The notes under the pieces were generated by a model. The model did not search any database. It was not told the DNA's origin and saw only the letters and a program-made list of their open reading frames with translations. From a bacterium (lineage in GTDB: Bacteria > Patescibacteriota > Patescibacteriia > JACPHY01), in assembly GCA_030646955.1 (NCBI GenBank), contig JAUSKM010000016.1, positions 1 to 35,436 on the forward strand: a stretch of 35,436 nucleotides of DNA, written 5' to 3'. The translations under genes were made by a program, and so were the position numbers. Positions 15,814 through 34,111 of the stretch are shown in pieces. Positions within the stretch are counted from its first letter, which is position 1. Every line of letters begins with the position of its first letter.

Positions 15814-18381
15814 CTACGCGTGCTCTTTCTCGCGCTTTTTCGGTGCGCGTGTCACAGTGGCACCGTGTGTACGTTTTGCAACGTTGAGCGCGTTGCCATC
15901 TGGCATCACGCTCACGCGAATCGTGTCGTCGCTCACGAAACGTTCTTCCAGGATGCCCTGCGCGATTGCGTTCTCCAGGTGTTCGTGGAGTAAGCGTCGG
16001 ATTGCACGCGCGCCCTGCGCGGGATCAAAGGCGCGCGCGGCGAACCAGTCGTACGCGGCATCATCTACGATGAGATGCATGCGGTGCTCGCGCTCCAGCC
16101 GCGCGGCGAACGTCGCGGTGTCGTAGCGCGCAATCGTTGCCAAGTGCTCGCGGCCCAGCGGACGATAGACAACCGTCTCGTCAATGCGATTGAGGAGCTC
16201 TGGGCGGAACCGCGAGCGGAGCGCGGCGATGGCATCCGTCTTGATGTCCGCGTACTGTCGGCTCAATGCTTCCGTGGCGTCTGCGCCGTCCAGGAATCCG
16301 ATGTTCGCTTTCGTGAATGCGCCTGCGCCGACGTTGGACGTGAGGATGATGATCGCATTCGTGAACCGCGCCTCGCGGCCCGTGGCATCCGTGAGCCGTC
16401 CGTCCTCCAATATCTGGAGGAGGAGGTTCCAGACATCCGGGTGCGCTTTTTCAATTTCATCGAACAGTACCACGCTCGCCGGACGTTTTCTGATTTCATC
16501 CGTGAGCTTTGATCCTTCGCGGTAGCCCACGTACCCCGCGGGCGCACCGATGAGCTTGCTGATGGTAAATCCTTCCGAGAACTCGGACATATCCAGCCGG
16601 ATGAGCGCATCATTGCGCTGGTAGAGGAGCTCCGCGAGCGCTTTTGCGGTCTCGGTCTTGCCCACGCCGGTGGGGCCCAGGAAGAGGAACGAGGCGAGCG
16701 GCCGGTTGGGGGCAGCCAGGCCGCTCTTTGCGCGTTGGAGCGCGTGCGCAACCGCGGTCACTGCGGCTTCCTGACCCACGATACGATTTCGCAGCGCGTC
16801 GCCAATGCGGAGGAACCGCTCATGTTCCTCCAGCAGCAACTCTTCCAGCGGAATGCCAACCGCTGCCGCGACCACCGCCGCGACATCGCGTTCCGTGATG
16901 TCGCCCACTTGCGCGGTGGAGTGCTGCTTGAGCTGTTCATTGATCTGCGCAAGCTCCTTCGTAATCTTGAGATACTCGCGCTGCAGCGCCGATGCATCGT
17001 CGTAGCGATCGTCACTGACGGCCTGACGTTTTTCGCCATCAATCAGTGCAAGGCGCGCGTCAATCGCGCTCGCGCGACGGATGAGCGGATTATTTTTTGC
17101 CTGCACCCGTACCCGCGCCGACGCCTCATCCAGGAGGTCAATGGCCTTGTCCGGGAATCGGCGATCGGTCACGTAACGCTCCGCAAGCGCGACCGCCGCA
17201 TCCATGGCGCTTTCCGTAATGGTCACGCGGTGGAATTGCTCGTAGTACGGCTTGAGTCCTTGGAGGATTTTGCGCGTCTCTTCCGTGGATGGCTCCTTGA
17301 CGTGCACTTGCTGGAAGCGTCGTTCGAGCGCCGCGTCATTCTCAACGTGTTTCTTGAATTCATCGTACGTCGTCGCGCCGACGCAGCGGATATCGCCGCG
17401 TGCGAGCGCTGGCTTCAGGATGTTTGCTGCGTCGAGCGATCCAGACGCCGCGCCCGCTCCCATGATGGTATGAATCTCATCAATGAACAGGATGAGATTT
17501 CTATCTTGTCGCACCTCATCAAGGATCTGCTTCAGCCGCGATTCAAATTCGCCACGGTAAATCGTCCCTGCGACAAGGAGCGCGAGGTCGAGTGAGAGAA
17601 TGCGTTTGCCTACCAGGATGTCCGGGACATCACGCTCCACGATGCGTCGTGCCAGCCCCTCCACGATCGCGGTTTTACCGACACCAGGATCGCCAACGAG
17701 GATCGGGTTGTTCTTCGTGCGTCGGCACAGGATTTGGATGACGCGCTCAATCTCCGCATCGCGCCCGACGACAGGATCAATGGTGAGGATGGTCTCCGGA
17801 TTCGTAAGGTCCTTCGCGAAGAAATCAAGCGCGGGTGTCTTCTGCGCGCCACTGCCTTCTTCTGCCTGCGTCTCCGCTTCCGCCATGAGCTCCTGCGGAT
17901 CCGTGATCGCCGCGGTGAAGTCCGGGAACTTTGAGGTGCTCTTGAGGACGTTGGCGAGGTGCTGCACGATGGCCGCAGGATCCAGGTGGAGTGATGAGAG
18001 CACGGCTGCGATCTCCGGATCTTCCGTCTCGAGCACGCCGGTCAGGAGGTGTTCGGAGCCGATGTACCGGTGCTCGTGCGCGCTCGCTGCAAGCGCCGCC
18101 TTTTCCAGTGCGCGCTTTGCGCCCGGCGAGAGCTTCCGCAGCTCGGTATCTCCTGATGCTGTGGTATCCGTAATGCCAAGCGCTGAACTGACGGCATCGG
18201 CCCGCACACGCATCTTTGAAAGGATTTCCGCGCCCAGCGATCCGCGCTCAAGCGTGAGCGCAAGGAGGAGGTGCGCGGGACGGATCGCGGCGGCTTCCTG
18301 CATCGTGGCAAACGCGCCCGCACGCTGGAGGATGTGGCGCAAGTGGGCGGTGAATTTATTCGGGATGGACATAGCGGACAT
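15814..18381 (-). CDS. clpC: ClpC-type AAA+ protease ATPase
   Basis: An 855-residue Clp/Hsp100 unfoldase, full length. It has an N-terminal Clp-N repeat domain (about 1-145); a first AAA module with GDPGVGKTA and LILFIDEIH; a short middle coiled coil (about 400-470) as in ClpC rather than the long ClpB propeller; and a second AAA module with GPTGVGKTE and [11 protein letters not shown]. An IGF tripeptide (in KANIGFLDG) lies in the position of the ClpP-docking loop, which points to ClpC/ClpA rather than ClpB. It would feed unfolded proteins to ClpP in the cytosol. ATG 18372 is an alternative start. The gene is 35 bases after htpX. Confidence 0.93.
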
Positions 18382-18416
18382 AAAGGACTTCGATAGTGTG
18401 AAGCGCTACTCCCATT

Positions 18417-19313
18417 CTACATCGCCATGCCGCGGAGCGCTCGTACACGCTCCTCGGCGGGCGGGTGGGTGGAGAAGAGATGCATGAAGCGTTGGCGGCG
18501 TGCGCCGAAAGGGTTGGCAATGAACAGGTGTGCGGTGGCGCCGTTCGCGCGCAGCATCGGCTGATTGGACGCGGCGATTTTTTCCAACGCGCGCGCAAGC
18601 CCCTCCGGGTATCGCGTGAGGAGCGCGCCATCCGCATCCGCGAGGTACTCCCGCTTGCGCGACACGGCAAGCTTGATCAGCTCTGCTGCGAGTGGGGCCA
18701 GGATCGCCAGGACTACGCCAACCACAAGGAGGATAAGGCCTGCTTGTCCGCTCTCTCGATCGCGACGGTTGCCGGCGAACCAGTGCGCGCGGAGGAGGAA
18801 ATCGGAGAGGAGCGCAATGGTGCCTGCAAGCACGATGACCACCGTCATGACGCGAATGTCGTAGTTCTTGACGTGCGAGAGCTCGTGCGCAAGCACCCCC
18901 TCCAGCTCCTGCGGCTCCAACCGCTCGATCGCGCCGGTGGTCACCGCAACGGAAGCGTGCTGCGGATCGCGCCCGGTCGCGAACGCGTTGATCGCGGGGT
19001 CGTGGATGATGTGGACACGCGGCACGGGCATGCCGCTCGTGATCGCGAGATTTTCCACCATGCGGTAGAGTGCCGGCGCATCGCGCTTCTGTACCTCCTT
19101 GGCCCCCGATGACCAGAGCGCGACGCGGTCGCCCTTGTAGTACGACCCCAGTCCCATCGTAATCGCGATGATGCCAGCAATACCAACGCCGCCGATGCCC
19201 GCCCCGCGCCCCATGACGGCATCGTACGCGTATCCCAGCGCCAGGATGACTGCGACGAATGTCCCGATGAGGATCCACGTCTTCCGTTTGTTTGCTGCGA
19301 TGTGGGAGTACAT
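18417..19313 (-). CDS. htpX: Membrane zinc metalloprotease HtpX
   Basis: An M48 family membrane-bound endopeptidase that degrades damaged membrane proteins. The 298 residues hold two N-terminal hydrophobic helices (about 12-30 and 40-57), the catalytic HELSH motif (H143-E144..H147), a further helix pair (about 155-176 and 190-215), and the downstream EYLADADGA segment supplying the third zinc ligand. The length is normal. The lemA gene directly upstream is a classical partner. The start codon is preceded, ten bases away, by a seven-unit heptanucleotide array whose units each contain AGGAG on this strand, so the array may supply or modulate the ribosome binding site. Confidence 0.95.
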
Positions 19314-19323
19314 GGGGGGGAAA

Positions 19324-19372
19324 GCTCCTGGCTTCTAGCTCCTAGCTCCTGGCTCCTAGCTCCTGGCTCCTA
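19324..19372 (-). repeat. Heptanucleotide tandem array (seven units) upstream of htpX
   Basis: Seven units of GCTCCTG/GCTCCTA (one GCTTCTA variant) in exact 7-base register on plus. On the minus strand each reads (C/T)AGGAGC, carrying a Shine-Dalgarno core. It fills most of the 80-base lemA-htpX gap. Such arrays can change length by slippage. Confidence 0.9.
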
Positions 19373-19393
19373 GCGTTCGGATTGGTCTGGCAG

Positions 19394-19963
19394 CTAGAAT
19401 CTCACTTTTGGTACTTCCTTCACGCGGGCCTCAATCGCATCGTCAATGTCGAAGAACTCCTTTTTGGCAAAACGGAAGAGTGCGCCGATGATGTTGGCGG
19501 GGAAGTGTTCGAGTTTCGTGTTGAGGTCGCGCACGTTGGCGTTGGAGAAGCGCCACGCGGCCATGATTTTATCCTCTGCATCGCGCAGCTCGTGCTGGAG
19601 CTCTAGGAAGTTTTGATTCGCTTTGAGATCCGGATAGGCCTCGGATACTGCGAAGAGCGTCTTGAGAGCGCCGGTGAGCATCGTTTCTGCCTGCGCGTGT
19701 TCGGCAAGCGTACCTGCGTGCATCGCGGCATTGCGCGCGGCGGTTACGCGCTCCATCGTGGTCGCCTCGTGCTTCACATATCCCTTCACCGCCTCCATGA
19801 GGTTCGGGATGAGGTTGTAGCGCCGTTGCATCTGCACCTCGACATCCGACCACGCCTCGTCCGCACGGTTGCGGAGCGTGATGAAGCGATTGTAGGTTGC
19901 GACGGCCCACAGGAGCACTACCGCACCCGCGCCAATGATGATCCAGAAAAGTGTCGATGTCAT
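19394..19963 (-). CDS. lemA: LemA family protein
   Basis: A 189-residue LemA family protein. One N-terminal hydrophobic helix (about residues 4-22) is followed by the diagnostic block YNRFITLRNRADEAWSDVEV, then QRRYNLIPNLMEAVKGY and a long four-helix bundle. The molecular role is unknown; LemA and HtpX genes are commonly adjacent, as here. I chose ATG 19963 because it places the helix at the N-terminus; the open frame to 20062 runs through the promoter region shared with the divergent manB gene. A TTGTGC-16-TACAGA promoter candidate lies nine bases upstream, which would give an almost leaderless transcript. Confidence 0.94.
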   Translation of the reverse strand: MTSTLFWIIIGAGAVVLLWAVATYNRFITLRNRADEAWSDVEVQMQRRYNLIPNLMEAVKGYVKHEATTMERVTAARNAAMHAGTLAEHAQAETMLTGALKTLFAVSEAYPDLKANQNFLELQHELRDAEDKIMAAWRFSNANVRDLNTKLEHFPANIIGALFRFAKKEFFDIDDAIEARVKEVPKVRF

Positions 19964-19972
19964 AGCATGATT

Positions 19973-20000
19973 TCTGTATCCAACGATTACGCACGCACAA
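19973..20000 (-). promoter_or_regulatory. Candidate sigma-70 promoter for lemA operon
   Basis: On minus: -35 TTGTGC (19995-20000), 16-base spacer, -10 TACAGA (19973-19978), nine bases before the lemA ATG. It would drive lemA-htpX and perhaps the genes beyond. Confidence 0.45.
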
Positions 20001-20035
20001 TGCTGTTTTCTGTGGCGGTTTTCCACCGCGTTGTG

Positions 20036-20041
20036 TACACT
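20036..20041 (+). promoter_or_regulatory. Possible extended -10 box for manB
   Basis: TACACT preceded by TGTG, 11 bases before the ATG at 20053; no clear -35. A short or absent leader would result. Confidence 0.35.
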
Positions 20042-20052
20042 CACTATACCGT

Positions 20053-21417
20053 ATGCATCCATCCATCTTCAAGGCGTACGACATCCGCGGCGTGTTTGGG
20101 GACGATTTCAATGCGGACGATGCCACGCGCATCGGCAGCGCGGTTGTCGCGCACACGAACGCGCGGCGTGTGTGCGTGGGGCGTGACATGCGCGCGTCGT
20201 CGCCCGTGCTGGCGGACGCGGTGTTGTGCGGCGTGACGGCGGCAGGCGCGGACGCGATGGACATCGGCCTCTGCTCCACGCCGATGTTCAACTTCGCGGT
20301 GGCGACGGATGCAAGCGTGCAGGCAGGCATCATGGTCTCCGCTTCGCACAATCCCGCCAAGTACAACGGCTTCAAACTTGACTACGGCGACGCGCTCCCT
20401 ATCTCCAGCGCGACCGGCATGGAGGAGGTGAAGCGGCTCGCGCTCTCCGGTTCCTCCCCCTCCCGTCGGGAGGGGGAGTTAGAGGGGGTGGGGCATGTCA
20501 CCGCCGCCTCTGTTCTCGATCCCTACCTCGCGCGCGTCACCTCGCTGCTAGATCCAGTGTCCCTCCCACCATTCCGCATGGTCGTGGACTGCGGGAACGG
20601 CATGGGTGGGCTGACAATGCCGCACCTCGCACCGCGCATACGCGGGACGGTGGAGCGGCTCTACTGGGAGCTCGATGGAACATTTCCACATCATGAGCCC
20701 AACCCCATCAAGCCGGAGAACGCGGCGGACCTTATGGCGGCGGTGCGCGAGTCCCGGGCAGACATTGGGTTCGCGTTCGATGGTGACGCGGACCGCATCG
20801 GCGTCGTGGATGAGCGCGGCTCGCTCGTGCGCGGCGATCTCCTCACCGTGCTCTTCGCACGCGCAGCGCTTGCGCGGCATCCCGGTGCAACCATCCTGTA
20901 CGATCTCCGCGCATCCCGCGCGGTGCCGGAGGAGATCCGCGCGGCCGGCGGCGTGCCCGTGGCGACGCGCGTGGGCCATGCGCTCATCAAGAAGCACCTG
21001 CGCGATGTTGGTGGCGTGTTTGCGGGGGAGCTCTCCAATCACTTCTACTTCTCCGAGTTTTCCGAGATGGAGGCCACGGAGTACGCGATGCTCCAACTCC
21101 TCGCCATCATGGGCGCATCTGGGCGAAAACTCTCCGAACTCATCGCACCACTCGAGCGCTACCACCACTCCGGCGAAATCAACTTCCCCGCAGACGACAA
21201 CAACGCCATCTTCGCCGCGCTCCAGGAGCGCTACGCCCCCACCGCGCGCGAGGTGTCTCACCTCGACGGCCTCACCTTTGATATGGGCGCGTGGTGGTTC
21301 AACGTCCGCCCCTCCAACACCGAGCCCCTCATCCGCCTCGTCCTAGAAACTCCCGCCCCGCGCGAAACCGAGAAGATGGTGGCGGAAATTGGGAGGGTGA
21401 TTTCGGGAACAGCGTAA
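20053..21417 (+). CDS. manB: Phosphomannomutase/phosphoglucomutase
   Basis: An alpha-D-phosphohexomutase that interconverts hexose 6- and 1-phosphates for nucleotide-sugar and envelope glycan synthesis. The 454 residues carry all four family loops: catalytic phosphoserine loop SASHNP (about 96-101), metal loop DGDADR (about 243-248), sugar-binding GELSNHFYF, and phosphate-binding RPSNTEP near the C-terminus. The start KAYDIRGVFG is typical. Residues about 133-148 are translated from the G-rich palindromic repeat and interrupt a surface region of domain 1 after the catalytic loop; nothing else is unusual. Substrate preference (mannose or glucose) cannot be told from this. It is divergent from lemA and upstream of rseP. 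Confidence 0.93.
   Translation: MHPSIFKAYDIRGVFGDDFNADDATRIGSAVVAHTNARRVCVGRDMRASSPVLADAVLCGVTAAGADAMDIGLCSTPMFNFAVATDASVQAGIMVSASHNPAKYNGFKLDYGDALPISSATGMEEVKRLALSGSSPSRREGELEGVGHVTAASVLDPYLARVTSLLDPVSLPPFRMVVDCGNGMGGLTMPHLAPRIRGTVERLYWELDGTFPHHEPNPIKPENAADLMAAVRESRADIGFAFDGDADRIGVVDERGSLVRGDLLTVLFARAALARHPGATILYDLRASRAVPEEIRAAGGVPVATRVGHALIKKHLRDVGGVFAGELSNHFYFSEFSEMEATEYAMLQLLAIMGASGRKLSELIAPLERYHHSGEINFPADDNNAIFAALQERYAPTAREVSHLDGLTFDMGAWWFNVRPSNTEPLIRLVLETPAPRETEKMVAEIGRVISGTA
20450..20496. repeat. G-rich palindromic repeat inside manB
   Basis: TCCTCCCCCTCCCG, short loop, CGGGAGGGGGAG, tail TTAGAGGGGGTGGGGCATG. It is a complete, undecayed copy, in frame, and near-identical to the intergenic copies at 6364 and 31573. 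Confidence 0.9.
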
Positions 21418-33655: not shown

Positions 33656-34111
33656 CTACGTCGAGCGCCGGGTGTGCGAGAATGGATCCCACGACTTTGT
33701 CAGAGGTCTCCGTCGCTTTGCGCGGTAGTTCAGCTTCGCGCGGATGCGCTGCACGAGAACGCTCTTCTTGTTCCGTTCACGCTGCGTCGGTGCGCGGTCC
33801 GGTCGGAGCTTGCCGTCGCGAATGATGTCCATCTTGCAGCGCGCCGCGAGTTCCCTCCGCGCCTGCGCTAGTGCCTCTTGTGGCGATGTGTGCCTTTCGG
33901 CGAACATGTCGCTGCCCTTGGGGTCGAACGCGGGGAGCATCGCGGTGTACGTGCCATCCCTGCCCTTCGTGATGACGCACCAGTACGTGGCCGTCTTTGG
34001 CCAGAGTCTGCTGTTTCGGGGTTCGAACGCGAAGACGGTTGCCACGAGCGGCGCTCTTCTTCTTGGGGGGATCATCGAATGCATTCTTCTTCGGGGGGTC
34101 ATCGAGTGCAT
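33656..34111 (-). CDS. HicB-like protein C
   Basis: A 151-residue protein with a HicB-like domain (about residues 40-95: ATYWCVITKGRDGTYTAMLP, EALAQARREL) and the family C-terminal signature RPDRAPTQRERNKKSV with QRIRAKL, followed by a basic tail. The first 20 residues are a Met/Pro/Arg-rich duplicate encoded by a 27-base tandem repeat. ATG 34111 has AAAGGAG five bases upstream. The stop is 12 bases before the next small membrane gene, whose ribosome binding site overlaps it. Together with A and B it makes a tandem family of three without a HicA gene. Confidence 0.74.
   Translation of the reverse strand: MHSMTPRRRMHSMIPPRRRAPLVATVFAFEPRNSRLWPKTATYWCVITKGRDGTYTAMLPAFDPKGSDMFAERHTSPQEALAQARRELAARCKMDIIRDGKLRPDRAPTQRERNKKSVLVQRIRAKLNYRAKRRRPLTKSWDPFSHTRRST
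34057..34110 (-). repeat. 27-base tandem duplication at start of HicB-like C
   Basis: Units 34057-34083 and 34084-34110 match at 24 of 27 bases. They encode the two MHSM(T/I)P(P)RRR-like stretches at the N-terminus of protein C. The unit length is a multiple of three, so the duplication kept the frame. Confidence 0.85.

Follow-up and report, generated by a model that had tools for sequence, protein, structure and literature searches.

Introduction

Repeats built of seven-base units are known from several bacteria, among them cyanobacteria (PMC4692102; PMC4679880), a point which a first-pass annotation of the locus treated here had also made and on which the available parts of both sources agree. 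For Xanthomonas, the reported heptamer patterns number 186 and 183. They are perfect or heterogeneous (GGGANTN) and dispersed over the two strands, about 90% of them are intergenic, and 70 and 75 facing pairs were counted; in the accessible portion of that account no regulatory role was found for them, and a proposal is cited according to which heptamers are favoured owing to the stretch of DNA that the polymerase holds (PMC4692102). The TAACTGA repeats of Beggiatoaceae, as far as the available text of their description goes, lie near start codons, and the genome that carries them has few Shine-Dalgarno sites (PMC4679880). No account of heptamer repeats in Patescibacteria was found in the literature searched, the coverage of which was partial.

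The window, that is, the whole stretch of 35,436 nucleotides that was analysed, is contig C11 of a patescibacterial genome of 1.03 Mb in 45 contigs (G000), whose size and gene content likewise point to such an organism, and it carries a heptamer array ahead of the gene htpX. It is likely, in our judgement, that this array is not a ladder of ribosome sites specific to htpX but belongs to a degenerate AGNAGCY/RGCTNCT heptamer family, mainly intergenic and present on both strands, and that the array grew by slippage.

The array upstream of htpX

The features of the locus are as follows:

18417..19313, minus strand: htpX, M48 peptidase, the downstream gene (Peptidase_M48, E 4.4e-32, Pfam)
19314..19323, minus strand: spacer TTTCCCCCCC of ten bases from the last unit of the array to the htpX ATG, containing a C7 run
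19324..19372, minus strand: tandem heptamer array, 49 bases, seven 7-bp units, read from the sequence
19391..19405, plus strand: short copy of the unit in facing orientation (CTGGCAGCTAGAATC), overlapping the lemA stop codon
19394..20062, minus strand: lemA, the upstream gene (E 4.3e-52, Pfam)

On the coding strand the units read TAGGAGC, CAGGAGC, TAGGAGC, CAGGAGC, TAGGAGC, TAGAAGC and CAGGAGC, and the TAG stop of lemA (19394-19396) adjoins the array. The first-pass annotation had located the seven units at exactly these positions, with the final one ten bases from the htpX ATG, and both readings are correct; the start itself is real, since its Met-Tyr-Ser is conserved in a genome of the same genus (G001). 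The same annotation had given every unit as (C/T)AGGAGC, which holds for six of the seven, with their AGGAG core, and fails for the sixth, where the core is AGAAG. Its reading of the sequence is nearly exact.

The array is real. Its 14-base pattern YAGGAGCYAGGAGC has five matches genome-wide, four of them within the array, against none for the reversed control, and chance can therefore be set aside. Tandem Repeats Finder (TRF) gave it a score of 76 at period 7, with 7.4 copies, and a score of 84 at period 21, the latter ranking second among the 25 rows of the window. Furthermore, a 14-bp dimer, TAGGAGCCAGGAGC (TAGGAGC CAGGAGC), occurs twice in succession and is followed by TAGGAGC and then by TAGAAGC CAGGAGC, which suggests growth by 14-bp steps; slipped-strand replication, adding 7 and 14 bases at a time, would be the process by which the array grew, and bacterial genomes seem to be prone to such steps.

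Several minor features accompany the array. The C7 homopolymer of the coding strand, at 19314-19320, separates it from the htpX ATG, and slippage there could be easier than for heptamers. The facing copy CTGGCAGCTAGAATC at the lemA stop may be due to chance, and folding gave no support to it. Moreover, lemA, htpX and a ClpB/ClpC-type AAA gene follow one another on the minus strand (15814-20062), and the highest TRF score of the window (89) belongs to a 27-bp unit in two tandem copies at 34057-34111, with 89% matches.

A dispersed family of degenerate heptamers

What the first-pass annotation overlooked is that the motif is present at many further sites of the genome, the array being one of some two dozen copies that lie between genes. 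The two-unit motif AGNAGCYAGNAGC has 32 exact sites (13 forward and 19 reverse), compared with two for the reversed pattern (one on each strand), and four consecutive RGCYNNN units with at most one mismatch give 54 genome matches against six for the control. When one mismatch is allowed in AGNAGCYAGNAGC, no excess over the control is seen genome-wide (83 versus 77), and the signal of this short motif therefore sits in its exact matches. The copies are mainly intergenic: genes were called at the positions of only two of the 21 script-found elements, a count based on our own gene calls with a simple codon model and on fetched stretches picked by the motif. Their neighbours are unrelated genes, some of them essential, including glycosyltransferases, RuvB, the small subunit of ExoVII, DnaJ, EF-G, ClpP and dCTP deaminase. 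Contamination of the bin by array-bearing contigs was rejected, their base composition being no different.

The variable position of AGNAGC is occupied in the window array by G in six units and A in one, whereas the other elements have C there in 21 cases, G in 12, A in eight and T in four. With G in just 12 of these 45 motifs, the resemblance to Shine-Dalgarno sites is a local one, for which homogenisation of units carrying G at this position is probably responsible. The consensus common to the copies of one genome would stem from copying between sites or from a shared bias. In this respect, 188 kb of the genome, taken from regions with hardly any hits or none in the motif searches, contained a single period-7 array, and of a different unit, so that slippage alone does not explain one dominant consensus.

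With respect to the described systems, the array is of the same kind as the heterogeneous intergenic heptamers of Xanthomonas, in a different family. As with GGGAATC/GGGANTN in that genus and GGGGA(C/T)T in Nostoc, the period is 7, the unit has fixed and free positions, and the copies are dispersed on both strands; as in the available portion of that description, they are mostly intergenic, at times in facing pairs, adjoin unrelated genes and vary in length among relatives (PMC4692102). The differences are that AGNAGCY lacks the G-tract of a quadruplex, no unit of the array having GGG, that copies are fewer and that the lineage is another (PMC4692102, in part). The likeness to the tandem heptanucleotides of the cyanobacterium Calothrix lies in the tandem arrangement of seven-base units (as cited in PMC4692102). 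The family shares with the Beggiatoaceae TAACTGA repeats the intergenic location, the frequent placement right before starts and what may be a genome with few ordinary ribosome sites; unlike that single fixed heptamer, the unit here is AGNAGCY, it is degenerate, and it has no overall preference for starts (PMC4679880, in part).

Shine-Dalgarno use and position relative to start codons

The functional proposal of the first-pass annotation was that the units offer repeated candidate ribosome sites, the number and spacing of which slippage would change, and with them possibly the HtpX level. Six AGGAG cores, the last of them ten bases from a real start, speak in its favour, as does the fact that tandem repeats can slip, which the neighbouring C7 run could also do. 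Against it stands the apparently weak use of Shine-Dalgarno-like motifs in this genome: such four-mers precede 29 of 135 starts, compared with a mean of 22.0 and a maximum of 34 in 200 shuffles, while a control position taken farther upstream gave 13 of 135, so that their use would be weak at most. The family elsewhere, moreover, is mostly not AGGAG, and neither G001 nor G002 has the array before htpX. An action of the array on htpX translation is thus possible as judged from its sequence, and initiation may be altered as a side effect; the family context makes a translation role unlikely as the reason for the existence of the array, and we regard a translational rheostat as an improbable account of it. 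A tandem array of AGGAG cores should accordingly not be taken for a ribosome-site switch until the rest of the genome has been checked.

Another role near starts could be conceived by analogy with the proposal made for the TAACTGA repeats, namely that the units might be sites recognised by a regulator that binds RNA or DNA. Many copies of the family end 3-13 bases ahead of a start codon, and essential genes are found among the neighbours, both of which would suit such sites. Position was evaluated with 114 elements from 18 genomes, 64 of them in co-directional gaps (57 usable) and the other 50 inside called genes (31), in divergent gaps (12), in convergent gaps (3) or at stretch ends (4). No preference for the start over the stop was seen in the co-directional gaps (57 usable gaps, mean 0.467, p=0.66), and the sequence of the unit changes from genome to genome, which together argue against regulator sites, an explanation that we consider extremely unlikely. 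Anchoring at start codons, striking by eye, was dropped on the same result for the 64 elements. By hand count, the start lies within 16 bases in 30 of the 64 and the stop within 16 bases in 21. As for this genome alone, ten of its 16 co-directional copies are nearer the start, five nearer the stop and one is a tie (hand count), a slight lean that would fit a translation role, but the number is too small.

The htpX locus in related genomes

A match was obtained in 42 genomes, of which 30 yielded loci (that of G000 and those of 29 relatives), and these were examined. In G001, whose htpX is 78% identical, the gap before htpX measures 21 bp and is devoid of the array; in G002, of the same family, an array was looked for in the gap before htpX and none was present. 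Among the 30 loci, runs of period 7 or 8 precede htpX in L046, L049 and L040, and weaker ones in L043, L045, L054 and L065, in all cases with other units.

Folding and the Y1 transposase

The facing arms AGCTNCT and AGNAGCT found in some copies (C10:16060-16157, C45:1711-1766, C33:20127-20214 and C23, and also in G196) would be the stem of a regulating or mobilising hairpin, either an RNA leader or an element like REP sequences, and the genome does have one Y1 (IS200/REP-type) transposase gene, at G000:C18:6143-6472 (L333). The folding results point the other way. Twenty elements of this genome had a median z of -1.5, compared with -2.05 for 40 array-free gaps (p=0.72). Facing arms, though present at several sites, give no ground for taking a hairpin as general; the window array itself, evaluated as a folded leader, folds worse than its shuffles (z +1.4 and +1.5). 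Furthermore, no three-unit array lies beside the Y1 gene within the fetched 3.4 kb, and Y1 was found in eight of 12 hand-picked array-bearing genomes and in three of six others, one of these below the cut-off, counts that give no clear link to the transposase. The hairpin element, which we hold to be very unlikely, was rejected because the elements fold no better than array-free gaps.

The resemblance to REP elements with Y1, within the available text of their description, lies in dispersed and extragenic copies, occasional facing arms and a single Y1 gene (PMC3733652). The fold test and the flanks of the Y1 gene revealed no fixed palindrome of 20-40 bp near the transposase; the copies consist of tandem 7-bp units, and the Y1 gene has no adjoining array (PMC3733652, in part).

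Heptamer arrays in the class and in other bacteria

Arrays are common in the class, and their core is not limited to palindromes. Of 380 genomes, 56 have five consecutive RGCYNNN units and 13 have the form with period 8; the reversed control YCGRNNN gave 21 of 380 (hand count), and its matches proved to be genuine arrays built on a different unit, in family f22 among other places. The non-palindromic core RGCR gave, at five units, 32 of 380, and its reverse RCGR 40 of 380 (hand count). A grammar of a palindromic core (RGCY plus three free bases) was consequently dropped as a rule, as non-palindromic cores also give arrays.

The period was further assessed in 39 stretches of related genomes that had been taken without regard to repeats and that comprise 616 kb and 246 gaps. 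Intergenic autocorrelation was high at lag 7 (z 6.3), echoed at lags 14 and 21, and at lag 8 (z 5.8), and the short lags 1-4 were likewise high. Gaps bearing a period-7 array numbered 11, where 0.45 were expected; for period 8 there were none, for period 12 three (0.45 expected) and for period 14, a harmonic, eight (0.45 expected), the remaining periods being at about chance level. In the intergenic gaps of other bacteria, at loci picked by a repeat scan and with the array masked, lag 7 reached z 10, and the period-7 bias is thus not peculiar to this class. The GTDB-wide scan says little on degenerate families: among the matches listed (at least 116 stretches), 34 of the 80 examined were uniform satellites of one distinct unit (hand count).

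It is conceivable, albeit doubtful, that throughout the class intergenic DNA is shaped by a process working preferentially in steps of seven bases (eight in some genomes), with a repeat dialect proper to each genome copied between its sites. If so, both the frequency of the 7-bp unit among bacterial tandem repeats and the dominance of one unit sequence per genome would become testable questions.

Among the array-bearing relatives the unit sequence varies from genome to genome, being GGCTTAN in G196, TCGAATN in G321 and the octamer AGCTAANA in G055 and G261. The arrays of this octamer, which stand in place of heptamers, are those of L327-L329 (G055) and L324-L326 (G261). Arrays with a TCGA-type core were seen at L302-L310 (G326) and L291-L301 (G321), several of them within long called reading frames, and in G326 most of the arrays examined fall within called genes.
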